Positions 36,493 through 49,944 of a stretch of 64,000 nucleotides of DNA are shown here, in pieces (position 1 is the stretch's first letter; every line of letters starts with the position of its first letter). The stretch is from Methylophilus sp. Leaf416. GTDB taxonomy: Bacteria; Pseudomonadota; Gammaproteobacteria; Burkholderiales; Methylophilaceae. Where the stretch lies: assembly GCF_001424665.1 (NCBI RefSeq), contig NZ_LMQS01000001.1, positions 373,225 to 437,224 on the forward strand. Reading direction: 5' to 3'. The position numbers were made by a program, and so were the translations under genes. The notes beneath the pieces are model-generated. The model was not told the origin of the DNA and did no database searches. It worked only from the letters and a program-made list of their open reading frames with translations.

Positions 36493-36510
36493 TTGTCACA
36501 TTTCTGTCAT
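36493..36510 (+). promoter_or_regulatory. Pho box before pstS
   Basis: TTGTCAC-ATTT-CTGTCAT is two 7-base direct repeats with an exact 11-base period, very close to the PhoB consensus. TAAGAT at about the expected -10 distance follows. It lies 56 bases before the pstS ATG, immediately after the pit terminator. Confidence 0.8.
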
Positions 36511-36566: not shown

Positions 36567-37559
36567 ATGAATACCACGTTGTTCCGCACTACTTTAATCG
36601 CTTCATTGATTGTACAAACATTCAGCTTTTCAACAGCTAATGCAGCGGACAAGATTATCAAAATTGACGGTTCGAGCACTGTATACCCGATTACCGAAGC
36701 CGTCGCTGAGGAGTTTCAGCGTACCAAAGGTATCAAGGTGACTGTAGGTGAATCTGGTACTGGCGGTGGTTTCAAAAAATTCTGCCGTGGCGAAACTGAC
36801 ATTTCAGATGCTTCACGCCCAATCACACAAAAAGAAATAGACCTGTGTAAAGAAGGCGGCGTACAGTTTATCGAGTTACCAATCGCCTACGATGCATTGA
36901 CTGTAGTGGTGAACAGTAAAAATGACTGGGTAAAACAACTGACAGTCGCAGAACTGAAAAAAATCTGGGAGCCAAACTCTTCTGTTAAAAACTGGAAGCA
37001 AGTGAATGCAACCTTCCCGGACAAAGCGATGAACCTGTATGGTCCTGGTACTTCTTCCGGTACCTTTGATTATTTTACTGAAGCGGTGAACGGCAAAGCC
37101 AAAGCCAGCCGTAAAGATTACACGCCATCAGAAGATGACAATGTCCTGGTACAAGGCGTTTCAGGTAACCAAGGTGGTTTGGCTTACTTTGGCCTGGCTT
37201 ACTACCTGGAAAACACAGACAAGCTGAGAGCCATTCCTATTGTTGCAAAAGAAGGCGGCAAACCTGTATTGCCTTCTGAAGCTACGGTAATGGACGGTAC
37301 TTACCAACCACTGGCCCGTCCATTGTTTATCTACGTGAACGCAACTTCAGCTGCATTCAAACCGGAAATCAAGGCGTTTGTGAATTTCTACCTGGAAAAT
37401 GCACCGGAACTGGTAAAAGAAGTGAAATATGTACCATTGCCAAAAGAAGATTACGATGCAGTTAAAACACATTTCAAAGCGATGAAACCAGGTACCGGCT
37501 TTAACGGTTCTTCAGAAGTCGGCATCAAGATTACTGACCTGTTATCCCGAATCAAATAA
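36567..37559 (+). CDS. pstS: Phosphate-binding protein PstS
   Basis: A 330-residue periplasmic phosphate-binding protein with a signal peptide (residues about 1-26, ending TANA-ADK). Phosphate-contact segments [41 protein letters not shown] and [12 protein letters not shown] are typical. ACAGGAG precedes the ATG. A terminator after the gene would make pstS more abundant than pstCAB. Confidence 0.96.
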
Positions 37560-37566
37560 TGATTAA

Positions 37567-37589
37567 GGGGCTGCAATAGCCCCTTTTTT
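37567..37589 (+). terminator. Attenuator between pstS and pstC
   Basis: GGGGCT/AGCCCC stem with a 5-base loop and six T residues, 8 bases after the pstS stop. Partial readthrough into pstCAB is expected. Confidence 0.8.
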
Positions 37590-37651
37590 CGTTACTTTCG
37601 GCCTGTACCGCGGATTATCCGCTAAAATTCTTACCCTGACAGATCATCACT

Positions 37652-38593
37652 ATGGCGACTCAAGCAATGCAAGCACCCGTGGAACTGCCCATCAGCCCCA
37701 GACTGGCTAAAAACATCCGTAGAAATGTCAAAGAACGCATCATTGAGTTGATACTGATGATGGCGGCACTGGTAGCGGTAGCCACTACCTTCGCGATTGT
37801 AGGCGTGTTGTTATATGAGTCTTTAAGTTTTTTTAAAACCGTGTCTGTGGTCGAGTTTTTCACCGATACCGAATGGACACCCCTGTTTGAAGATGCACAC
37901 TACGGCATCTTGCCACTGGTTTCAGGTACATTAACGACTTCTGCCATTGCCCTGGCAGTGGCCGTGCCTATCGGTACCATATCGGCGATTTTCCTGTCTG
38001 AATTTGCCACACACAAAACACGCGAGATTGTAAAGCCTATCCTGGAATTGCTGGTGGGTGTACCAACCGTAGTGTTCGGCTATTTTGCCTTGTTCTTTGT
38101 CACGCCATTACTACAGACCATCTATCCGAATCTGCCTAGCTTCAACATGCTGGGTGCCGGTATTGTGATGGGCATCATGATTATTCCTTACATTGCCTCA
38201 CTGTCTGAAGATGCCATGCGCGCGGTGCCTATGAGCATGCGTGAAGGTTCTTATGCGATGGGTGCAACCCGTTTCCAGACTGCGGTTAAAGTGGTCACAC
38301 CAGCGGCTATCTCCGGTATTGTGGCTGCCTATATCCTGGCGATCTCCCGCGCGGTGGGTGAAACCATGGTGGTGGCGATTGCTGCGGGCCAGCAACCTAA
38401 CCTGACATTCAATCCACTGGAAAGCGCTGCGACGATTACTGCTTACATTGTGCAGGTGGCCATGGGCGATTTGCCGCATGGCAGCATTGGTTACCAAAGT
38501 ATTTTTGCCGCCGGACTGGTGTTAATGGCAATGACGTTAACTTTTAACATCATCGGTCACTGGGTACGCAAACGCTATCGCGAGAGTTACTAA
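37652..38593 (+). CDS. pstC: Phosphate ABC permease PstC
   Basis: A 313-residue inner membrane permease with six membrane segments. The ABC coupling loop is in MSMREGSYAMGATRFQTAVKV, and the final AISRAVGETMVVAIAAG is the Pst permease signature. It pairs with PstA; a 90-base gap containing the short inverted repeat CCGGT...ACCGG (about 38643-38659) lies before pstA. Confidence 0.95.
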   Translation: MATQAMQAPVELPISPRLAKNIRRNVKERIIELILMMAALVAVATTFAIVGVLLYESLSFFKTVSVVEFFTDTEWTPLFEDAHYGILPLVSGTLTTSAIALAVAVPIGTISAIFLSEFATHKTREIVKPILELLVGVPTVVFGYFALFFVTPLLQTIYPNLPSFNMLGAGIVMGIMIIPYIASLSEDAMRAVPMSMREGSYAMGATRFQTAVKVVTPAAISGIVAAYILAISRAVGETMVVAIAAGQQPNLTFNPLESAATITAYIVQVAMGDLPHGSIGYQSIFAAGLVLMAMTLTFNIIGHWVRKRYRESY

Positions 38594-38683
38594 TTCTTAA
38601 GATATACCCTGACGCAAAGCTGACATATAACAACGATACACTGCCGGTAACCGACTACCGGACGATGCGGGAATAATACCAAC

Positions 38684-39622
38684 ATGGAACATAAAGCTTC
38701 TGTACTTGAAAATCTGGCCGAAGTGCGCGCCATGATTAAACGCCACAAGCGTAACGACACGTTGTTTGCAACGCTGGGCCTACTCTGTCTGATGCTAGGC
38801 CTGATGACACTGATGTTGCTGTTCTGGCAGTTGATTGCTGATGGCTATCCTAAATTCAACCTTGAATTCCTGACTGAATTCCCTTCGCGTCGTGCAGCGC
38901 GTGCCGGCTTGCTTTCCGCATGGGTAGGTTCATTGCTGGTGATGATTGTGACATTCCTTTCTGCGGTGCCTATAGGCGTCGCCGCCGGTTTATACCTCGA
39001 AGAATATGCGCCGAAAAATTTCTTTACTGACCTGATTGAAATCAACGTCTCCAATCTGGCTGGCGTACCCTCCATTATTTACGGTTTGCTGGCGCTAGGT
39101 TTATTTGTGTACATCCTGGGTTTGGGTCAAAGTATCCTGACGGCCGGTTTAACCTTGGGTCTGCTGATTCTACCAATTGTGATTGTGTCTACCCGCGAAG
39201 CCATACGTGCTATCCCGGTTTCTATCCGCGAAGCCGCATACGGCGTTGGCGCGACCAAATGGCAAGTGGTGTATGACCATGTATTCAAATACTCTTACGG
39301 CGGCATTTTGACCGGTGTGATTATCGGTATGTCCCGCGCTTTAGGTGAAACTGCACCGATTATCACCATTGGTGCGCTGACATTCATCGCCTTTCTGCCA
39401 CCCTCACCAATCACTACAGAGGCACCATTCATTAACTTTGAATGGTTATCCTCCGGCTTTACTGTGATGCCGATCCAGATGTTTAACTGGTTGTCCCGCC
39501 CTGACCATGCATTTCATGTCAATGCGGCCGCCACTGGGGCACTCATTATTGTTGTCACCTTGTTGATGAACGGTGGCGCAATCTGGTTACGCTACAAAAT
39601 TCGTAAAAATATTAAATGGTAA
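38684..39622 (+). CDS. pstA: Phosphate ABC permease PstA
   Basis: A 312-residue permease. The N-terminal cytosolic stretch ([16 protein letters not shown]) is followed by six membrane helices; [20 protein letters not shown] is the coupling loop and [17 protein letters not shown] the conserved C-terminal signature. It ends 25 bases before pstB. Confidence 0.95.
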
Positions 39623-39647
39623 TGCCACACAGGATTTAGAAAATATC

Positions 39648-40427
39648 ATGGCCACAATAACGACCCCGATTAAAGCCGAAGCACGCGATTTAAACTTTTT
39701 TTATAGCAACGGTGCCCGCGCACTCAAAGGTATTTCCATGCCTTTGTACGAGAACAAAATCACTGCGCTGATTGGTCCTTCAGGCTGTGGTAAATCCACA
39801 TTCCTGCGCTGTTTCAACCGCATGCACGACCTGTATCCTGGTAATAAATATCAGGGCCAGATTGTAATGCACCCGGATAACACCAATGTGCTCGATAGCG
39901 GCGTGGACCCGATTGAAGTACGCATGCGTATCAGCATGGTGTTCCAGAAACCTAACCCGTTTCCGAAATCGATCTATGAGAACGTGGCTTACGGTCTGCG
40001 CGTGCGTGGTGAAAACAACAAACGCATCATGGATGACAAAGTAGAAGAAGCGCTGAAAGGCGCAGCATTGTGGAATGAAGTCAAAGACCGTTTGCACGAT
40101 CTGGCATTCAACCTGTCCGGTGGTCAGCAACAACGCTTGTGTATTGCCCGCGCGCTGGCCACGGATCCGGAAATCATGTTGTTCGATGAACCGACTTCAG
40201 CATTAGACCCGATTGCAACGGCCAACATTGAAGAGTTAATGGTTGAGCTGCGTAGCAAATTAACGATTCTGGTCGTGACACACAATATGCAACAGGCAGC
40301 ACGTGTGTCCGATTACACGGCGTATATGTACCTGGGTGAACTGATCGAGTACGATGATACCGACAAAATCTTTACTAACCCTGGCCGTAAGGAAACTGAA
40401 GATTACATTACCGGTAAATTTGGTTAA
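39648..40427 (+). CDS. pstB: Phosphate ABC ATPase PstB
   Basis: A 259-residue ABC ATPase with Walker A ([12 protein letters not shown]), the [15 protein letters not shown] signature, Walker B ([13 protein letters not shown]) and the switch His in [16 protein letters not shown] 39648 with upstream AGGA matches the family length; a longer frame would overlap pstA. The operon ends here at a terminator: there is no phoU or phoBR after pstB, unlike E. coli. Confidence 0.96.
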
Positions 40428-40536: not shown

Positions 40537-40860
40537 TTATTTAGGAAGGTAAGGGATGGCACCTGCAACATCAGTGTCATCTATCAACTGGAAACGGCTT
40601 TCAGTACCCTCTTGCCTGGCTTTTGAGAATGGCGCATATTCGGGGTCATTCGCAAATGCTAATGCTGCTTCTTTATTAGGAAACTGAATTAAAGCAATCA
40701 ATGTGTTTTCCAATGGCTTACCCTCAAGCACATCAATATTAGCACTTCGACTCAAATATCTTCCACCATGTTTTTCCGCAATCAGGTGAACATGCTTTGC
40801 ATATTCAGGAACCCATTCATCATTTTTAAGTAGTACATCTGCAATTAAATATGCTGCCAT
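40537..40860 (-). CDS. DUF1330 family protein
   Basis: A 107-residue dimeric alpha-beta barrel (ferredoxin-like) protein of the DUF1330 family: AAYLIADVLLKNDEWVPEYA, the internal HGGRYLSRSANIDVLEG and the FPNKEAALAFANDPEY segment are characteristic. Function is unknown. AAGGAG precedes the ATG. The roughly 290-base stretch from here to the glycosyltransferase gene holds nothing I can call. Confidence 0.85.
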   Translation of the reverse strand: MAAYLIADVLLKNDEWVPEYAKHVHLIAEKHGGRYLSRSANIDVLEGKPLENTLIALIQFPNKEAALAFANDPEYAPFSKARQEGTESRFQLIDDTDVAGAIPYLPK

Positions 40861-41150: not shown

Positions 41151-42350
41151 TTATGCGGCTGCAGAAGCTGACAGCGGAAAATTGGCCAGCATCAAACGCT
41201 CGTAGCACTCCAGCAACTTCTTGGCCTGTGCTTCGCTTGACCATACCTGTTCCACATAGCGTTTGCCATTTTTACCAACACGCTCACGCAACTGGTGGTC
41301 AATCAGCAAGGTTTGTACTTGTTCGGCAAAGTGCAACTCGTCATCTTGTGCAATCAGCGCGCCCTGCTCATGGCGCAAGATGGAGGCAGTGCCCAGTTCA
41401 GCGATGGCAACCACCGGTGTTTCCTGCGCCATGGCTTCCAGCAATACTAGCCCTTGTGTTTCACTCTTGGAAGCAAACACAAAGATATCCGCAGCACGGT
41501 AAGCGGCATTCAGGCCGACAGCACGGTCCAGGTAACCCAGGAACATCACGTTCTGTTGCAAGCCGTTATCCTTTGTCATTTTTTTCAACATCGCTTCGGC
41601 CGGGCCTTCACCCGTGATCACCAGTAAAACCTCGGGATGATCCTGGATGACCAGCGACAACATTTCCAGCAGGAACTGGATATTCTTTTCATGTGCAACC
41701 CGGCCAACAAACATCAGCAAAGGCCTTTGTGCGGGGATGCCATATTTTTCCCTGAAGGCTGCGCCATCACCAGGTACAAAACGTGAGGCGTCCAGGCCGG
41801 TAGGAATCACGGTAATTGGTGTGGTCACCCCGTATTGTTGCAAGACATCACGCATTTGCCCTGAAGGTGACACCACGGTATCCACTTGCTGGCATTGCTT
41901 ACGAGATACCCATTGCGCAATATTCACCGCAAACTTGCGTGGTACCCACGGCAAGTAATGGTGCATATAGTCTTCAAAGAAGGTGTGGTAGGTTTCCAGC
42001 ACCGGCACTTGCAGTTTCTTGGCGATTTTAAGCCCGGCATAGTGCGCGATAAAGGGAGTATGGATATGCACCATGTCGTAATCACCAGGATGCAGGCTTT
42101 CAATATAGGCCACCAGTGCAGACCACTTCATTAAGTAATCTTCAGGATCAAACACAATCTTGCGCGCATCTATGCGCGTGATCCAGGCTTCATCACCAAT
42201 CAGAGCATGATCGAGGGACTGCGCGTATTGAGGCGCAATCAGGTGCACGCTATGCCCATCGGCACGCAGGCTTTCTGCAAAGGTACGAATGCTGGTTGAA
42301 ACGCCATTTACGCGTGGGAAATACACATCTGAAATCATCAATATTTTCAT
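41151..42350 (-). CDS. GT4-family glycosyltransferase (possible glycolipid synthase)
   Basis: A 399-residue GT-B glycosyltransferase of family GT4. The N-terminal ISDVYFPRVNGVSTSIRTF matches the group containing bacterial diacylglycerol glycosyltransferases and mannosyltransferases such as MgtA, and the C-terminal half has the EX7E-type site (FVFASKSETQGLVLLEAMA). The sugar donor and acceptor cannot be read from sequence. It is divergent from a phospholipase C-family gene, with Pho-like repeats in the intergenic region oriented toward that gene. A role in replacing phospholipids with glycolipids during phosphate starvation is my inference. Confidence 0.88.
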   Translation of the reverse strand: MKILMISDVYFPRVNGVSTSIRTFAESLRADGHSVHLIAPQYAQSLDHALIGDEAWITRIDARKIVFDPEDYLMKWSALVAYIESLHPGDYDMVHIHTPFIAHYAGLKIAKKLQVPVLETYHTFFEDYMHHYLPWVPRKFAVNIAQWVSRKQCQQVDTVVSPSGQMRDVLQQYGVTTPITVIPTGLDASRFVPGDGAAFREKYGIPAQRPLLMFVGRVAHEKNIQFLLEMLSLVIQDHPEVLLVITGEGPAEAMLKKMTKDNGLQQNVMFLGYLDRAVGLNAAYRAADIFVFASKSETQGLVLLEAMAQETPVVAIAELGTASILRHEQGALIAQDDELHFAEQVQTLLIDHQLRERVGKNGKRYVEQVWSSEAQAKKLLECYERLMLANFPLSASAAA

Positions 42351-42432
42351 GCAAAGTTCCGTTTAAGCGGTTCCATGTAAACAATTCTCACATACTTTAA
42401 CAAGGGTTCGTGATGCTTTTATGACTAAATCC

Positions 42433-42472
42433 CTTTCATATCAATGTCATACAATCATCATGCATCTGTCAT
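42433..42472 (+). promoter_or_regulatory. Pho-box-like repeats before the phospholipase C gene
   Basis: CTTTCAT (42433) and ATGTCAT (42444) are exactly 11 bases apart; CTGTCAT (42466) follows at 22 bases, two periods on. Each differs from CTGTCAT by at most one base. Orientation matches transcription of the downstream gene. No clear -10 element was found. Confidence 0.5.
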
Positions 42473-42494
42473 CTACCAGGCGCAGAGTGCGCAC

Positions 42495-43358
42495 ATGCAA
42501 AAAAGTATCTTCAGATGTTTAGCCGTACTGCTATTACTGATTGCCATACCCGGCGAAGCACATGCCTGGGGGTTGTATTCCCATGTGGCTTATACCCATA
42601 GCTGGTTACAGACATTACCTTTATTGCCCTTGCCCTGGTTAGGCGTGATGCGGCGTTACCCGACCCTGGTGCTGGCTGGCGCCTGCCTGCCGGATCTGGC
42701 AGTAGTTTCCCGTACCTTTAATCACAGCCATGGCTGGGGCATAGGCCAGCAATTACTGCATACCAAAAATGAGAGACAACTGGCGCTGGGGATAGGGTAT
42801 AACGTGCATTTACTCACCGATGTCGTTGCCCACCAGCATTTTGTACCTACGTTTGAAGCCAAGTGGCAGCATGACAGTCTGCTCACGCATGCGGCTGCTG
42901 AATGGGCAATGGATGCTTACCTGCAAACGACGGACATTCCTTCGCCTTCCAAACTATTGCGTATACACCGCAAAACCATTGTGGAAACGTTAACGCAAGC
43001 GATGCAATGTGATTCCGGCATCGTGGAAAAAGCTGTTTCCAGGTTAGCTACCGCCGACCAGGCATTGCGCCTGTCGCGTATTCCCCAATATTTGTTGCGC
43101 CGTTACGGCAGGCTGGATAACGAGTTTGAACACAAACTGGCCTATTACCGCGATCAGGTAAGTTTGGCATTGCAAGACCTGCCTCAGTTACTCAACGGGT
43201 CGTTTCCCTCATTGCATGCCGAGCATGTCAATTTAGGCATGGAACAACTGGATGACTGGCGCCAAAAATGCCTGCAAGACGCCAGGCTGCGCCCTACCCG
43301 TGCCATCCAAGCGTTTGAGCATTACCATCATCAGTGGTTTAACCAGCCAGACTGCTAG
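42495..43358 (+). CDS. Secreted zinc-dependent phospholipase C family protein
   Basis: A 287-residue protein with a signal peptide (MQKSIFRCLAVLLLLIAIPG...AHA) predicted to be cut so that the mature chain begins with Trp25 (WGLYSH). In Bacillus zinc phospholipase C the mature N-terminal Trp is itself a zinc ligand, and further His/Asp residues here fit that site: H30, ACLPDLA, and GIGYNVHLLTDVVAHQHFVP. I choose ATG 42495 rather than 42444, which lies inside the Pho-like repeats and would precede the signal peptide by 17 residues. Substrate is unproven. It is followed by a metallophosphoesterase gene on the same strand. Confidence 0.75.
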   Translation: MQKSIFRCLAVLLLLIAIPGEAHAWGLYSHVAYTHSWLQTLPLLPLPWLGVMRRYPTLVLAGACLPDLAVVSRTFNHSHGWGIGQQLLHTKNERQLALGIGYNVHLLTDVVAHQHFVPTFEAKWQHDSLLTHAAAEWAMDAYLQTTDIPSPSKLLRIHRKTIVETLTQAMQCDSGIVEKAVSRLATADQALRLSRIPQYLLRRYGRLDNEFEHKLAYYRDQVSLALQDLPQLLNGSFPSLHAEHVNLGMEQLDDWRQKCLQDARLRPTRAIQAFEHYHHQWFNQPDC

Positions 43359-43487
43359 CGCAAAAAGCCAAGCTGCCGCTGTTGCTTTAACAGCTAGCGG
43401 GTATGCTTTAATTATCAGGCTGACTTGAATCTATTGGCGCTGGCTCCATCTAACGAGTACCCATCCTCCAGCCAACAAAAACAATAC

Positions 43488-44645
43488 ATGCCGCCTCTAC
43501 GCTTTCTGCTCACATTCACCACCATGGTCAGTGTCTTGCATTACTACATCGGTTCACGCCTTCTAAACTCGGTTGCCTGGGCTGATTGGGTGCTGTGGGC
43601 CGGTTGGATATTCCTGGTCATTTCAACGCTGCTGCAGCCAGTCGCTTTCCTGGCACGCGGGCTGCGTAACCATGCTTTGCGTGATACCACCAGCTGGGTC
43701 GCAATGACGCTGATGGGCGTGTTTTCTTCATTGCTGGTACTGACACTAATACGAGATATTTTCTTGCTGGTGGTCGCTGGCATGGATGCTTCCCACTTTT
43801 TCCAGGCAAACTTTTTAACGCTGGAGAAGAACACTGCTTTATTGGCAATCACAGGCGCAGTGGCAATCAGTGTGATCGGGTTTTTCAATGCCCGTCGATT
43901 AGCCAGGGTGATTAAAATCAAAGTGCCTTTACGCAATTTGCCTGCCACGCTGAATGGCTTCCGTATTGTGCAGATCAGCGATATCCACGTAGGGCCTACC
44001 ATTAAAAAAGGCTATCTTTCGCGCATCGTTAACCGCGTCAATACCTTGGACGCCGACCTGATTGCCATTACCGGCGACCTGGTGGATGGTCGCGTCAGTG
44101 AACTCTCAAGGCATACCCAACCGCTGGCGCAATTGAATGCGCGCCACGGCAGTTTTTTTGTTACCGGGAATCATGAATATTATTCTGGCGCACTGGACTG
44201 GATTCAGGAAATAAAGCGCTTAGGGATACAAGTATTGCTGAATGAGCACGTGCAGCTGAAACATGATGGCGCAACGCTGGTTTTGGCGGGGGTGACAGAC
44301 ATAACCGCAGGCGGGTTCTATGACCATCATCAGAGTGACCCACATGCAGCGATTGCAGGTGCGCCCCTGCATGCACCAAAAATCCTGCTCGCGCACCAGC
44401 CACTGAGTTCCAAAGAAGCCGAGTCAGCAGGTTTTGATTTACAGTTATCCGGACATACGCATGGCGGCCAGTTTTGGCCATGGAAATACCTGGTGCCACT
44501 GCAACAGCCTTATGTAGCTGGGCTGCACCGTTTGAAAAATTTGTGGGTATATGTGAATCGGGGGACCGGTTATTGGGGCCCACCCAACCGCTTTGGCTCG
44601 CCGTCGGAGATCACCTGCCTGACACTAGTACCGGCAAATGATTAG
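43488..44645 (+). CDS. Membrane-anchored metallophosphoesterase (YkuE-like)
   Basis: A calcineurin-like phosphoesterase of about 385 residues. About four N-terminal membrane segments are followed by the dimetal site: QISDIHVG (DxH), AITGDLVDG (GDxxD), VTGNHEYY (GNHE), LLAHQPL and LSGHTHGGQFWP. This is the YkuE/YaeI-type membrane architecture, not the soluble PlcP type. The ATG at 43488 lacks a good ribosome binding site; TTG at 43425 with AGG upstream is an alternative that adds 21 residues. It is probably co-transcribed with the phospholipase C-family gene. Confidence 0.88.
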   Translation: MPPLRFLLTFTTMVSVLHYYIGSRLLNSVAWADWVLWAGWIFLVISTLLQPVAFLARGLRNHALRDTTSWVAMTLMGVFSSLLVLTLIRDIFLLVVAGMDASHFFQANFLTLEKNTALLAITGAVAISVIGFFNARRLARVIKIKVPLRNLPATLNGFRIVQISDIHVGPTIKKGYLSRIVNRVNTLDADLIAITGDLVDGRVSELSRHTQPLAQLNARHGSFFVTGNHEYYSGALDWIQEIKRLGIQVLLNEHVQLKHDGATLVLAGVTDITAGGFYDHHQSDPHAAIAGAPLHAPKILLAHQPLSSKEAESAGFDLQLSGHTHGGQFWPWKYLVPLQQPYVAGLHRLKNLWVYVNRGTGYWGPPNRFGSPSEITCLTLVPAND

Positions 44646-44680: not shown

Positions 44681-45634
44681 TTAACCCTCAACGCGCCTGC
44701 GGTAAAGCACATCTGGCAAATAGCTAGCCAACACTAGCAGTATCGCCAGCACCAGATACACGACGCGTAGCGGGTAGTCTGTGACAAAACTGGCTGTGGC
44801 TTTTTTTGCGGCAATAGACTGGTAAAACGCTTCCTGGTCTTGCCCTTTCACGTAACTGCCTTTGAATTCCGCTGACAGCTCTTTCAAATACTCTTCTTCC
44901 AGTTGCGACAGCATGCGGTCATATTCTGCATAAGCCACCGGAGGATCCGGTTCATCACTACTCGGGTCCGCATAAGTCACGCCTACAGCACCTGCGTTAT
45001 TATTTTCGCTAACTGGCCAGTATCCCACTGGTTTATTGGCAGTGTTATAGCGTGTAATCGCCACCTTTTCTGGACCGCCTACCCCGACAAACGTGAAAAA
45101 CTCACCGATCTGCACCCCGCTTAAATCCTGCTTGATGGTCACGTTCACGCGTGGCGCTTCATCGCCATCGGTGAAAAACAGCATTTGTGCCGGTTGATTC
45201 AGCGCATCATAAATATGGGTCGCTGCATGTACGGCAAAGCTCAGACGGCTATTGCCTTTCCATGCCATGCGCCATTCCAGGTGATCAATACCATCGGTAA
45301 TCACATCCAGGTTTTTGCATACTTCCAGCGGTGTTTGCAACATCGCCACGTTATCAGAAGCAAAAATGCCTAAACTGAAATACGTGCCGCATGGTGCTTT
45401 ATGCACGATCTGTTTCATCAAATGTTGTGCGTAGGCAATGCGGCTGATTTTTTTCTGGTTCAGCATTTCATCTTCAGCATTCATACTTTGTGACACATCG
45501 GTGATCAGCAAATAATGCTGCACCTGCTGCCTGAGCTGTATGCTGGGCTTGACCAGTGCCAACACCAGCAAACTCAAAGCGAGTGCGTAGAGCACAGGCT
45601 CATAGTACTGTTTCAGCCATGCTATCGCTTTCAT
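44681..45634 (-). CDS. mxaL: MxaL-type von Willebrand A domain protein
   Basis: A 317-residue protein with membrane segments at both ends flanking a vWA domain; the MIDAS motif DVSQS is at residues 46-50, near the first membrane helix. In methylotrophs mxaA, mxaC, mxaK and mxaL are needed to insert calcium into methanol dehydrogenase. The assignment rests on its place as the last gene of a MoxR-DUF58-vWA operon in the mxaRSACKL order. Its ATG overlaps the mxaK stop by one base. Confidence 0.82.
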   Translation of the reverse strand: MKAIAWLKQYYEPVLYALALSLLVLALVKPSIQLRQQVQHYLLITDVSQSMNAEDEMLNQKKISRIAYAQHLMKQIVHKAPCGTYFSLGIFASDNVAMLQTPLEVCKNLDVITDGIDHLEWRMAWKGNSRLSFAVHAATHIYDALNQPAQMLFFTDGDEAPRVNVTIKQDLSGVQIGEFFTFVGVGGPEKVAITRYNTANKPVGYWPVSENNNAGAVGVTYADPSSDEPDPPVAYAEYDRMLSQLEEEYLKELSAEFKGSYVKGQDQEAFYQSIAAKKATASFVTDYPLRVVYLVLAILLVLASYLPDVLYRRRVEG

Positions 45635-46170
45635 TATGGCAACCCGATCGGCAGATTACTGAGTTCCATATGCGACTGGTCTTTAGTGCCCGCCTGCATG
45701 CCGCGCGCCATCACCGAGTGCAATAGACTCAAATTGAATTTGGCCGCTTTATCTGCAGGCTGCAGGCGTAATGACTGTTCATAAGCGATTTTTGCCTGTG
45801 TAAATGCATAGCGCGCCTCATCCTGAAACGAACCATCTTCATTCACTGTGCGCACCAAGCCGGACAAAAACAGGTTATTCCCGATATTGAAATGGATATG
45901 CGGCAGCTCGGCTTCTGGCGGACCGACTTCCAGCAACTGGCCATAGGTTTGCACTGCATGTTTATAATCGCCATGTTTGCCCTGGTCATAGGCCGCAGTA
46001 AACCGTTGCAAATACGGATATTCTTTCTCTTTAATCAACGTGCCATTCTGGATTTTTTGATTCAGCGCCTGTAATGACTGTAACTGCCAGCCAAAATACA
46101 TCGCACCAATGATTCCTGCCACGGTAATGCTACCCCACAGCCAATTGGCTTTTTTTGCATGTGTTGCCAT
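45634..46170 (-). CDS. mxaK: MxaK-type membrane protein with TPR-like region
   Basis: A 178-residue protein with one N-terminal membrane anchor (WGSITVAGIIGAMYFGWQL) and a tetratricopeptide-like soluble part (DYKHAVQTYGQLLEV, then AYEQSLRLQPADKAAKFNLSLL). Sequence conservation of MxaK is low, so the call leans on gene order. It overlaps both neighbours by one base. Confidence 0.78.
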   Translation of the reverse strand: MATHAKKANWLWGSITVAGIIGAMYFGWQLQSLQALNQKIQNGTLIKEKEYPYLQRFTAAYDQGKHGDYKHAVQTYGQLLEVGPPEAELPHIHFNIGNNLFLSGLVRTVNEDGSFQDEARYAFTQAKIAYEQSLRLQPADKAAKFNLSLLHSVMARGMQAGTKDQSHMELSNLPIGLP

Positions 46171-47135
46171 TAGTACATCCTTATATGTTTAACCAGCACC
46201 AACCCAAATCCCAGTACCAATGCCAGCAAGATTAAGTCTTTGGCATAGTCATGCCCGGGAATCATGATGGCGTATTGAATGACGTTCTTTTCCTTGGCAT
46301 CGATTTCACGCAGGGCAGATTCCAGCGCCGTGGCGTTATCTGCCTCAAATGCCTTGTATTTGATCTTTAAGGAACGGAAAAATCTATCCAGCGCTATGGC
46401 TTCCGGTACGCGCTCTTCTTCATAGACGTTGTCACTGAAAATACTGATGTCATCAGGTTCACGTAGCACAATCCAGTACAGATTGAGTTTTTTACCTGTC
46501 AACTGTTTCTGGATCTGGTATTTCACGCGCGGGCTTAATTTACCGGCACCATCCGACAGCAAAACGATAGCGCGCGAGCCGGTGCTGGCAATGTTTTCAA
46601 ACAATGTTACTGCATTGGTGATGCCGGCACCGATATTGGTCTGGTTCAAGGCCGGGCCAGTCGCGGCCTGAATTGCCGAGTGGATGCCATCGCGATTGGT
46701 GGTGATTTTCATGCCATACAGGGCAGAGTTGGTGAAGCCAACCACGCCCATCATGTCATCCGGTCGGGAATCGATAAATGCAGTAATTAATCGCCTTGCC
46801 GCCATGGACTTGATTTCTGCCGCATGCCCACCGGTACTTTGCCCGGCAAACGGGTGATCCATACTCACGCTGCGGTCAATCACAAATACACTTTGCGCCC
46901 CTTTGCCGACTTTTTGCTCCTGGTGGCTATCGCCCTGTGGACCAGCCAAAGCTAACACCAGGCATAGCAGCATCAGTGCAGTAGCGGCTTTAACCAGCCG
47001 GTTGGCGGTATCTGAAAACGGGTCTGCAGGCACCATTTGCAACCATGAATAAGTTTGTGCATGCCGGCTTTTCAATAGGAAAGGGACAGCGACTACTGGC
47101 AACAGCAGCAAGAACCACGGGTGTAACCAATGCAT
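46170..47135 (-). CDS. mxaC: MxaC-type von Willebrand A domain protein
   Basis: A 321-residue BatA-like protein: two N-terminal membrane helices, a vWA domain with MIDAS motif DRSVS at residues 87-91 (SVFVIDRSVSMDH), and a C-terminal membrane helix. It is part of the methanol dehydrogenase maturation set and would act at the inner membrane facing the periplasm. One-base overlaps with mxaA and mxaK point to a single transcript. Confidence 0.83.
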   Translation of the reverse strand: MHWLHPWFLLLLPVVAVPFLLKSRHAQTYSWLQMVPADPFSDTANRLVKAATALMLLCLVLALAGPQGDSHQEQKVGKGAQSVFVIDRSVSMDHPFAGQSTGGHAAEIKSMAARRLITAFIDSRPDDMMGVVGFTNSALYGMKITTNRDGIHSAIQAATGPALNQTNIGAGITNAVTLFENIASTGSRAIVLLSDGAGKLSPRVKYQIQKQLTGKKLNLYWIVLREPDDISIFSDNVYEEERVPEAIALDRFFRSLKIKYKAFEADNATALESALREIDAKEKNVIQYAIMIPGHDYAKDLILLALVLGFGLVLVKHIRMY

Positions 47136-48037
47136 CAGACGCCCCGTTCACAATCGCGCAGCTGGCGCGTAAATGTTTTACATTGCTTTAAATAACCGGC
47201 AGCGTCGATGGCTTGCCCGCTATACAGCACCGCATTGGACTCGGCAAAAAAAGCATGAAGCGCTTGTTCTAGTGGTTTAAAACCAGGTTGTTGCGCGACA
47301 AACTGCGGCACATGTGACGCCAGCATTTGCTGGCCGAAGCGCTGATTCAATGCATCTTGCACAATCAGGGCTGCCTGCTTCTGGCCTTCAGCGTTTGCTG
47401 GCAGTTTTTTTAGTTTGCGGAAAGCACGGGCAAAGTGCCCGTTCACCATAGGCAATAAAGTCCAGTCGGAATTCCGGTAAAGCAATACCAGGCCACCAAT
47501 CACCGCTAGTAACAGGCTGATAAGCAATCCTCGTTGTGGCGTTTGTGTATCCAGTAATGCCGGGCGGTGTTGTGCAACCACACTTTGCCTGGCTTTTTGT
47601 AACTGGTCTGGCAGTTGCGCCATCAACCAGAAGCGCCATGAAGGTAATTCAACCTTGGCACCGCTTTTAAATGTCACTTGTTCGGCCGGCAGTTGCAACT
47701 GCACAGGTTTGCCACTGCTGGCGAATACCTGGTAATCGTATACCAACTTGTAGACTTGTTGATTTCCCTGCTTGCGGCTATCGACTTGCAACTGCCGCAG
47801 TTCAACACCGTTACGTTGCAAGCCTTTCAGTGGCAGGTTGTTGTCATTGAGCTGATCATTTGCAGCCACCGAAACCTCGATGGAGCGTTGCAATACATCA
47901 CCGATCTGTATCCCTGCATAAGAAGCCGGGTTTTGCACGCTAAGTACTTGCACTTTGGCCACTGGTGTTTCGGCCAAGGCAAAGCTTGGGCATACAGCAG
48001 CCATCAACCACCATAAAAAAATCTGTTTCATCAGCAC
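47135..48037 (-). CDS. mxaA: MxaA-type methanol dehydrogenase maturation protein
   Basis: A 300-residue protein with a signal peptide (IFLWWLMAAVCPSFALAE), a periplasmic beta-rich domain, one membrane helix near residue 180 (LLISLLLAVIGGLVLLYR) and a cytosolic tail. MxaA is required for active calcium-containing methanol dehydrogenase in Methylobacterium. Position between the DUF58 (MxaS) and vWA (MxaC) genes supports the name. Confidence 0.8.
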   Translation of the reverse strand: MLMKQIFLWWLMAAVCPSFALAETPVAKVQVLSVQNPASYAGIQIGDVLQRSIEVSVAANDQLNDNNLPLKGLQRNGVELRQLQVDSRKQGNQQVYKLVYDYQVFASSGKPVQLQLPAEQVTFKSGAKVELPSWRFWLMAQLPDQLQKARQSVVAQHRPALLDTQTPQRGLLISLLLAVIGGLVLLYRNSDWTLLPMVNGHFARAFRKLKKLPANAEGQKQAALIVQDALNQRFGQQMLASHVPQFVAQQPGFKPLEQALHAFFAESNAVLYSGQAIDAAGYLKQCKTFTRQLRDCERGV

Positions 48038-48040
48038 ACT

Positions 48041-48901
48041 CTAATGGATAAGTTGTTCAAAATAATCCGACAGCAAGGCCGAATCGAAGCGTCCATCGAC
48101 ATACAGCGGACGAATATCAAAGCGCGCAAATAGCTGGTCCAGCGCCTGTTTACGTTGCTCAAACATCTCGACAAACTGCGCGCGTATGGCCTGGCGGAAG
48201 AAAATGGTTTTTTGCTGGCCGGTTTCGGGGTCTTGCAAGTTACCGAAACCAAAGCGCGGCAAACGCTGATATTCCAGCGGATCCCATAATACGATGGGAA
48301 TCATTTGGTGATTGGCCATCAGGTTCAAGCCATGCTCAATCAGTGACAGCGGCAAATGAAAATCGGAAATCCAGAACACCAGGCCTTTTTGCTGGCCCAG
48401 TAATCCGGCCGCCTCGACGATGCCACTGCCATCTCGTCGCGTACTGCGAAAATCACCGATTTCGGCGATGGTGGCAAAAGACTGGTGCGCATGGTGCCCG
48501 GCTGACAGGCTCAAATGCGGAATCACGCTATGGTCATAAGAAACCATGCCAAACAGGTCACTGTTCTCATGGGCCGAGCAGGCAATCGATGCTGCCACCG
48601 CTTTCACCGTATCCAGCTTGCTCACTTGCCCCTGAAACTGCATGGAACTGGACAGATCACATACGGCATACAGAGGAGACGATGCCTCCTGCTTGAATAC
48701 ACGCACCTGGATCTGCTCATAAGGATCACGCAGCGTTTGCCGCAAATCCACGCGCCTGGCATCCGGATAATCAACTAGCGAAACATGCTTGCTGAATTCA
48801 TCGCCCGGACCACGCTGTATGCCCAGGTGTTCGCCAGTATGCACGCTGGCAGAGCGCCAGGGCACCTGGTAGAAAAAGGGCTGGGCGTAGTCGGGAATCA
48901 T
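48041..48901 (-). CDS. mxaS: MxaS-type DUF58 protein
   Basis: A 286-residue DUF58 protein. The DUF58 core is visible as DYPDARRVDLRQTLRDPYEQ followed by SPLYAVCDLSSSMQFQG, a degenerate vWA-like strand and MIDAS-like motif. DUF58 proteins are regular partners of MoxR ATPases. Its ATG overlaps the mxaR stop by 4 bases. Confidence 0.85.
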   Translation of the reverse strand: MIPDYAQPFFYQVPWRSASVHTGEHLGIQRGPGDEFSKHVSLVDYPDARRVDLRQTLRDPYEQIQVRVFKQEASSPLYAVCDLSSSMQFQGQVSKLDTVKAVAASIACSAHENSDLFGMVSYDHSVIPHLSLSAGHHAHQSFATIAEIGDFRSTRRDGSGIVEAAGLLGQQKGLVFWISDFHLPLSLIEHGLNLMANHQMIPIVLWDPLEYQRLPRFGFGNLQDPETGQQKTIFFRQAIRAQFVEMFEQRKQALDQLFARFDIRPLYVDGRFDSALLSDYFEQLIH

Positions 48902-49944
48902 GCCGCTTTCGCCTTGGATGGCACGCTCACTGAAGCCAGTATCTGGTTGGTCAGTTCGCGGGACAGTTCGGTGCGACGGCTTTCAAACATCGGGTTAAGC
49001 ACCAGTCTGTGCGCAATGATTTCATGGAACACCGCATGAATATCTTCTGGGAATAAACTGTCACGATTCATTAGCCAAGCATGCACACGGGCTGCTTTTA
49101 ATAACATACCCATACCACGCGGACTGGCCCCGGTATGTATCAGGCGGTTAACATCCACGCTATCAAGCTGAATGCCGTAAGCAGATGGTTTTTGGGTAGA
49201 TTCCCACAAATCCAGCGCATAATCTTCAAGCACATCGCTGGCGCGGATATGGCTTTGCAATACGTCAGAAAAAGCATTCAGCTGGTCATAAGCCAGTACG
49301 CCGGCATCCACTTGCTGGGTCAGGCGCTCGGCATGCTGGAACTTCACATCGAACATCAAGGCCTTGCGTAATGCACGATCCTCAGGAATTTCAATCGGGA
49401 TTTCCATCATAAAGCGGTCGCGCGCTGCGGATGGAATCTCAAAGGTTTCATTTTTTTCTACCTGGTTACGGTCGGCGAATACCAGCATGTGCGGCAAACG
49501 ATATTCTTTTTTGAACGCGCCAATATGTCGCTCAGCCATCACACGCAGCATCAATGCATGTACCTGCGGCCTGGCGCGGTTGATCTCGTTAAAAAAGAAC
49601 ACAGACAACTGCTCGCCTGCCCGCAGCAACGGACCCTCTTCCACTTTTGGACGGCCATCCTCGCCAAGGAATGTGTGGTAGATCAGATCGTTAGGCATCA
49701 GGTCAACGGTGCCTTCAATACGCTCATAAGCCCCCCCCAAACCACGGGCAATCGACTGCAACAACGTCGTTTTACCCACACCTACACCGCCTTCGAGTAA
49801 CACATGGCCGCGGGCAAAAATGGCAATATTAATGGCACGGATTGCCTTGTCCTGGCCGACCACTACTTTTTTCACTTCGTTTTCGAGCTTAAGCGCATGG
49901 TCGCGCCACTCGGTCAATTGTGTTTCGATTGATACGGATGTCAT
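48898..49944 (-). CDS. mxaR: MoxR/MxaR-type AAA+ ATPase
   Basis: A 348-residue MoxR-family AAA+ ATPase, the presumed chaperone of methanol dehydrogenase maturation. Walker A is GGVGVGKT (52-59). The Walker B position reads FFFNEINRARPQ: the usual Asp is Asn (N119) while the catalytic Glu (E120) is kept. It is the first gene of the mxaRSACKL operon. No mxaFJGI genes lie upstream; a divergent hypothetical gene is there instead. A G8 run near 49731-49738 is inside the frame. Confidence 0.87.
   Translation of the reverse strand: MTSVSIETQLTEWRDHALKLENEVKKVVVGQDKAIRAINIAIFARGHVLLEGGVGVGKTTLLQSIARGLGGAYERIEGTVDLMPNDLIYHTFLGEDGRPKVEEGPLLRAGEQLSVFFFNEINRARPQVHALMLRVMAERHIGAFKKEYRLPHMLVFADRNQVEKNETFEIPSAARDRFMMEIPIEIPEDRALRKALMFDVKFQHAERLTQQVDAGVLAYDQLNAFSDVLQSHIRASDVLEDYALDLWESTQKPSAYGIQLDSVDVNRLIHTGASPRGMGMLLKAARVHAWLMNRDSLFPEDIHAVFHEIIAHRLVLNPMFESRRTELSRELTNQILASVSVPSKAKAA

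Follow-up and report, generated by a model that had tools for sequence, protein, structure and literature searches.

An exported zinc phospholipase C paired with a GT4 glycosyltransferase in Methylophilus sp. Leaf416: a candidate phosphate-responsive membrane-lipid remodelling module

Methylophilus sp. Leaf416 (Methylophilaceae) carries, within a 64,000 nt stretch of contig NZ_LMQS01000001.1 (assembly GCF_001424665.1, positions 373,225 to 437,224 of the forward strand; hereafter the window), a phosphate transport operon followed by a GT4 glycosyltransferase gene that diverges from the genes of an exported zinc phospholipase C (PLC) and a membrane-anchored metallophosphoesterase. A sequence-only reading had grouped these genes into a possible lipid remodelling module for phosphate starvation. 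All of their open reading frames (ORFs) are present where it placed them and on the same strands, and Pfam matches bear out the families. The features of the locus, including the predicted release of diacylglycerol (DAG) by the PLC, are:

36493..36510, + strand: Pho box of two half-sites, TTGTCAC-N4-CTGTCAT, 56 bp 5′ of the pstS start (score 22/24, the window's top two-half-site match)
36567..40427, + strand: pstS-pstC-pstA-pstB phosphate ABC transporter operon (PstS and PstB above their NCBIfam cut-offs; a frequent neighbour of the GT4/zinc PLC pair in relatives)
41151..42350, − strand: GT4 glycosyltransferase resembling alpha-monoglucosyl-DAG synthase, a predicted DAG glycosyltransferase (Pfam PF00534/PF13439; NCBIfam NF049988 below cut-off; GRVAHEKN and ETQG motifs)
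42433..42472, + strand: Pho box array of four CTGTCAT-like half-sites with an exact 11-bp period, directed towards the PLC gene (score 40/48)
42495..43358, + strand: exported zinc PLC (PF00882), 287 aa, predicted to release DAG from membrane phospholipids (Pfam match, invariant ligand-like columns in 28/28 sequences, fold comparison)
42495..42566, + strand: signal peptide of the zinc PLC, predicted cleavage AHA|W (Ala24 and Trp25 invariant in 28/28 sequences, Ala at −3 in 27/28)
43488..44645, + strand: membrane-anchored calcineurin-like metallophosphoesterase, YaeI/LpxG-like (PF00149; hydrophobic segments ahead of the catalytic domain)

The names PstC and PstA derive from position and from similarity in relatives, NCBIfam models having been applied to PstS and PstB. 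Two starts differ from the ORFs as called (42444-43358 and 43425-44645, both + strand). The PLC start appears better placed at 42495 than at 42444, because the ATG at 42444 falls within a Pho half-site and the one at 42495 begins the signal peptide; the latter corresponds to an ATG preceded by GTGCGC in most Methylophilus loci compared. Similarly, the metallophosphoesterase start appears better at 43488 than at 43425, because relatives have an MPPLRFL-like start. A sigma-70 scan found no site between the GT4 and PLC genes and a single site at 43387-43415, ahead of the metallophosphoesterase gene, which is fewer than in shuffled sequences.

The PLC matches PF00882 with 47.4 bits against a curated cut-off of 26.8 (E = 2.7e-12); all 24 of 24 family members searched also match the family (E up to 0.1). 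Its closest named relatives are Methylophilus proteins with 86 to 90% PLC identity (among the 80 retained of 228 candidates). Nine residues (W25, H30, D67, H79, H105, D109, H115, H132 and E136) are invariant in 28 of 28 aligned sequences, and we take these positions to be the metal ligands of PF00882 phospholipases (W, H, D, H, H-x3-D, H, H-x3-E). The structure model has the fold of Bacillus cereus PLC (1ah7), with the Trp at the predicted mature N-terminus; in particular, the first aligned residues are residue 25 of the model and residue 1 of the chain. A sequence-profile search of solved structures returned no match for the protein (E up to 1), and identity over the residues aligned with B. 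cereus PLC and alpha-toxin structures is 11 to 15%. Overall, the protein shares with B. cereus phosphatidylcholine-type PLC and clostridial alpha-toxin the PF00882 profile, the ligand pattern, the predicted N-terminal Trp and the fold, and differs from them in its low identity and in being predicted to act on the cell's own membrane within the Pho regulon. The model is all-helical and so lacks the extra C-terminal domain of alpha-toxin. These results, together with the predicted signal peptide, agree with the proposal of the sequence-only reading that this is an exported protein with the zinc PLC fold.

Another reading of the PF00882 protein is that it is a periplasmic nuclease or nucleotidase of the S1/P1 type, scavenging phosphate from nucleic acids, and that its adjacency to GT4 reflects shared Pho control only. 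S1/P1-type nucleases do appear in the structure comparison, where the top 18 matches are all PLC, alpha-toxin or S1/P1-type nuclease structures, but the PLC and alpha-toxin structures, with scores of 6.3 to 8.4, rank above the nucleases, and the 10 families matched by the 24 members (E up to 0.1) do not include S1/P1. Moreover, the last ligand pair, HxxxE, is what we take to be PLC-like, as opposed to the HxxxD of S1/P1 nucleases, and a nuclease would leave unexplained both the complementarity with PlcP and the in-place swap described below. A nuclease is therefore an unlikely identity for this protein.

The region between the GT4 and PLC genes contains a Pho box array. Scoring used the half-site CTGTCAT at a period of 11, after the consensus CTGTCAT-N4-CTGTCAT (CTGTCATNNNNCTGTCAT) found in the accessible portion of PMC11828411. 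Four half-sites at 42433, 42444, 42455 and 42466 sum to 40/48, the highest four-half-site score in the window, which was not reached by any of 5000 shuffled versions of the intergenic region or by any of 200 shuffled versions of the window (highest score 38). The 11-base Pho-like repeats described from the sequence are thus real though degenerate; a generic repeat finder reported no repeat family in the same region. Two-half-site boxes scoring at least 20 occur only twice in the 64 kb, in this array and in the box before pstS. Their number is not above chance (shuffled windows average 1.56), and it is their positions, not their number, that count as evidence. A Pho box of the kind found in PlcP-Agt systems is hence present towards the PLC gene. 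The genome encodes a PhoB above its cut-off, and the phoB gene has a box of its own, some 40 to 75 bases before its start according to which start is taken. Towards GT4 the best box in the window is weak and not significant (15/24, reached by 1841 of 5000 shuffles).

The same periodicity recurs in relatives. Across 64 GT4-PLC intergenic regions, period 11 gives a higher best score than periods 8-10 or 12-14 on either strand (Wilcoxon p = 2.6e-12 and 3e-12). These regions also outscore a control set of 78 divergent regions (towards PLC, p = 2.1e-15; towards GT4, p = 9.5e-9), which themselves have a slight period-11 excess (p = 0.04 and 0.02). The result persists in the 47 regions that remain after similar ones are removed (p = 2e-9 on either strand).

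The best of 48 NCBIfam families for the GT4 protein is NF049988, the Acholeplasma-type alpha-monoglucosyl-DAG synthase, which it matches over its full length with the same GT4 architecture (E = 3.7e-46); the score of 158.3 bits is below the equivalog cut-off of 400, as is every NCBIfam match shown below its own, and the activity is a prediction. The protein carries GRVAHEKN and, at the position of the Agt signature, FASKSETQG; the ETQG motif is present in 128 of 130 GT4 rows, which include some genomes twice. According to the available part of PMC8231724, characterised Agt/GTcp enzymes have an FPSxTDTFG signature that includes the catalytic Asp. The GT4 protein lacks this signature, so the analogy with Agt drawn by the earlier reading does not hold in the strict sense. 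A separate Agt-like gene is strongly matched in 26 of the 120 family genomes: streamlined genomes carry it close to GT4, and eight genomes of the window's genus and two others carry it elsewhere; none was found in the Leaf416 genome at 1e-30.

The diversity of GT4 enzymes, the below-cut-off NCBIfam matches and the missing Agt signature would also be consistent with a different acceptor, such as a polysaccharide or the lipid A region, in which case the module would be unrelated to glycolipids. Against this, the top profile is a DAG glycosyltransferase matched end to end, 99 of the 101 GT4-bearing genomes of the family have a candidate DAG-releasing enzyme, and the recurrent neighbours identified are dgkA, PAP2, olsA and olsB; such an acceptor seems improbable.

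The pairing of GT4 with the zinc PLC was surveyed in 120 Methylophilaceae genomes, drawn evenly from a larger group (thresholds: zinc PLC, E up to 1e-3; GT4, E up to 1e-60; PlcP-like, E up to 1e-20), and in neighbourhood maps of 40 family loci and 80 named loci (80 retained of 228 candidates), 79 of which have a called PLC ORF (none was called in L181). A frequent order is pstSCAB, GT4 (reverse), sometimes dgkA, PLC (forward) and a PAP2 phosphatase gene (reverse). The sequence-only reading had suggested such a neighbourhood survey, and the linkage is borne out: among the 79 PLC-bearing named loci, GT4 is present in 74, PAP2 in 57, PstB in 51, DgkA in 18 and the metallophosphoesterase in 10. 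The arrangement found in the window recurs in the laboratory strain Methylophilus methylotrophus DSM 46235 (L132). In the five loci that lack GT4, the PLC gene either lies within 450 bases of the locus start (L155 and L173) or has no GT4 near it (L146, L166 and L197). As a side observation, two loci (L083 and L084) have a tandem pair of pstS genes before pstCAB, next to the GT4-PLC pair.

Across the 120 genomes, zinc PLC is found in 79, GT4 in 101 and a PlcP-like gene in 23 (two of the PlcP matches are fragments). The 101 GT4-bearing genomes divide into 77 with zinc PLC only, 21 with PlcP only, one with both and two with neither; the last two may reflect assembly gaps, one contig ending right after dgkA (G088) and the other GT4 beginning 320 bases from a contig start (G108). 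Conversely, 17 of the 19 genomes without GT4 have neither enzyme. The Fisher p values are 7e-12 for PLC versus PlcP and 1.5e-16 for GT4 with either enzyme, and they overstate the evidence because the genomes do not count as independent observations; more weight belongs to the repeated switches and the in-place swap.

Some relatives with streamlined genomes (1.2 to 1.4 Mb) have GT4 without zinc PLC, and others have none of these genes. In all 11 uncut maps of GT4-bearing streamlined relatives, OlsA, OlsB and a roughly 250-aa LpxH-like metallophosphoesterase are encoded near GT4, with PAP2 in nine and DgkA in six; in two maps (L066 and L271) the metallophosphoesterase ORF was uncalled and was placed by homology search. 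This gene is taken as PlcP, judging by its size, family and neighbours. Its profile matches mostly LpxH structures among solved structures, and LpxH itself was considered and rejected, because each of 10 genomes tested has a separate LpxH above the cut-off; the PlcP-like gene matched the LpxH model in three of them, scoring 34 to 50 bits where the cut-off is 190. Within one genus (g9) the two versions occupy the same locus: G008 has pst-GT4-dgkA-zinc PLC, and G028 and G041 (81 and 72% complete) have pst-GT4-dgkA-PlcP-PAP2, each with one gene between pst and GT4. A GT4 tree implies at least four switches between zinc PLC and PlcP within the family, a rough count given the long-branch warnings for streamlined genomes and outgroups. 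No PlcP was found in the Leaf416 genome by homology search at 1e-20 or by profile at 1e-35.

Several further arrangements were noted around the PlcP-like genes. In five stretches of the streamlined genus g14 (L062, L063, L064, L270 and L273), GT4, PAP2, OlsA, PlcP, OlsB, DgkA, Ppk and Ppx occur together, with an Agt-like glycosyltransferase in four of the five; this is apparently a compact phosphate-saving island that includes the polyphosphate genes Ppk and Ppx. In G027, the one genome that has zinc PLC as well, contig 13 (L274) holds a PlcP-like gene among many short ORFs and without GT4, possibly a mobile element. In genus g9 (L077, L268 and L269), a further glycosyltransferase with a PSxTETFGN motif, which we take to resemble that of alpha-mannosyltransferases, stands beside the zinc PLC and PlcP versions alike.

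The zinc PLC might instead scavenge phosphate from external or outer-membrane phospholipids, with GT4 using DAG from another source. Pseudomonads have secreted phospholipases that scavenge phosphate, and both the predicted export and the Pho control of the present enzyme would suit such a role. DAG also has other routes, as noted for E. coli in the accessible part of PMC4796936. However, scavenging does not account for the nearly one-to-one pairing with GT4 or for the substitution by PlcP, an enzyme reported to provide the DAG used in remodelling, and we regard it as the least unlikely of the alternatives, though still improbable. Because of the GT4 linkage, the near-perfect complementarity with PlcP and the in-place swap at the pst-GT4-dgkA locus, the zinc PLC most likely does PlcP's job, releasing DAG from the cell's own phospholipids for GT4 when phosphate is scarce.

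A class-level sample of 369 genomes (Leaf416 and 368 others; thresholds 1e-35 for the PlcP profile and 1e-8 for zinc PLC) places this GT4 lineage with PlcP elsewhere. GT4 is matched in 46 other genomes at 1e-55, of which 39 reach 1e-85 or better, and PlcP is found in 102. PlcP occurs in 30 of the 39 strong-GT4 genomes versus 72 of the 329 others (p = 1.5e-11), within 5 kb of GT4 in 14 of the 39, and an Agt-type enzyme with TDTFG lies between GT4 and PlcP in 3 of 29 GT4 loci read. Zinc PLC is found in one of the 368 genomes (L281:3302-7533). There its gene follows that of a PhoX alkaline phosphatase, the two being separated by a single ORF that matches no Pfam family, and GT4 is not matched in this genome at 1e-55.

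The metallophosphoesterase had been proposed as part of the module. Its membrane anchoring is supported by the hydrophobic segments, but a place in the core is not: in the neighbourhoods examined (not whole genomes), it adjoins PLC in 10 of the 79 named loci. All ten are titled Methylophilus, and one further locus so titled (L143) lacks it. It could be supposed to be the functional PlcP, leaving the zinc PLC as a scavenger, since it is calcineurin-like and lies directly 3′ of PLC, and since both the protein and its motifs are conserved among Methylophilus loci. Yet it is missing from 69 of the 79 PLC-bearing neighbourhoods, has a different architecture, aligns with the PlcP profile over only 75 core columns and is closer to the LpxG and YaeI models, though below both equivalog cut-offs (118 against 350 bits and 97 against 188 bits). 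A PlcP identity was rejected on the architecture and the short alignment, and the supposition as a whole is very improbable. LpxG was rejected as well, the score being below cut-off and the function not needed in a genome with an LpxH above its cut-off; a sequence-profile search of solved structures gave no match (E up to 0.001). The protein looks like a lineage-specific accessory, peripheral to the conserved core. More speculatively, it may have been recruited recently to the PLC transcript, perhaps to process the released phosphoester.

Taken together, we assign a probability of about 0.7 to a PhoB-controlled membrane-lipid remodelling module in which an exported zinc PLC stands in place of PlcP. 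The lipid module proposed by the sequence-only reading therefore survives for GT4 and the zinc PLC (on linkage, Pho boxes, PlcP complementarity and the in-place swap), and falls for the metallophosphoesterase as core and for a strict Agt. When phosphate is scarce, PhoB would bind the four-half-site array and induce expression; the PLC would be exported via Sec, and signal peptidase would expose Trp25, helping to build the tri-zinc site. The enzyme would then release DAG from the cell's own membrane phospholipids, the DAG would equilibrate to the cytoplasmic leaflet, and GT4 would add a sugar from a nucleotide donor, with glucose as a first guess, to yield a phosphorus-free glycolipid. Excess DAG would be recycled by DgkA; its gene adjoins GT4 in a quarter of the loci and has a separate position in the Leaf416 genome. 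That genome also encodes an OlsB relative, so it may additionally produce ornithine lipids. A more specific picture has slightly better than even odds: most of the family would have swapped PlcP for a toxin-type zinc PLC that digests the cell's own periplasmic leaflet under PhoB, with DAG crossing the bilayer to GT4 and the half-reactions on opposite sides of the inner membrane.

Remodelling by PlcP and Agt is described for Sinorhizobium, Phaeobacter, SAR11, Pseudomonas aeruginosa and Methylosinus in the available portions of PMC4796936, PMC8528852 and PMC9239053. Both systems have a Pho box and a Pho-linked pair of a predicted DAG-releasing phospholipase C and a GT4 enzyme, and the present GT4 lineage is itself found near PlcP outside the family. 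In contrast to the LpxH-like metallophosphoesterase, the TDTFG of Agt/GTcp and the single operon of those systems, the module here has an exported zinc PLC, a GT4 with ETQG and divergent genes. It is set apart from PlcP-Agt because two defining features, PlcP and the Agt signature, are absent, and the best reading is a PlcP-Agt-like pathway whose first enzyme is replaced by an exported zinc PLC and whose GT4 belongs to a different subgroup. Among the matches listed in a search of the open-licence literature, there was no PF00882 enzyme in bacterial lipid remodelling and no such module in Methylophilaceae; subscription papers fall mostly outside that scope, and this is no proof of absence. The accessible text of PMC11844350, on Methylotenera lipids, contains neither a word starting with 'glyco' nor one starting with 'plcP', and that of PMC6445935 and PMC11828411 has no zinc PLC.

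Two neighbours in the window are recorded for completeness. A DUF1330 gene (40537-40860) lies between pstB and GT4, with a relative called in 4 of the 79 PLC-bearing named loci. Downstream, 44681-49944 holds MoxR ATPase and von Willebrand domain genes that, we assume, resemble a methanol dehydrogenase maturation cluster; a similar cluster adjoins GT4 or PLC in three loci (L094, L145 and L204).

Surveys of phosphorus-driven lipid renovation take plcP as the marker gene, according to the available parts of PMC4796936 and PMC9239053. If the zinc PLC does PlcP's job, such surveys would overlook 77 of the 101 GT4-bearing Methylophilaceae genomes, namely those with zinc PLC only, and the pathway would be defined by its step rather than by a single enzyme family. 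Further, a fold best known from secreted toxins would have a role on the cell's own membrane, and the sidedness of the pathway would become directly testable.

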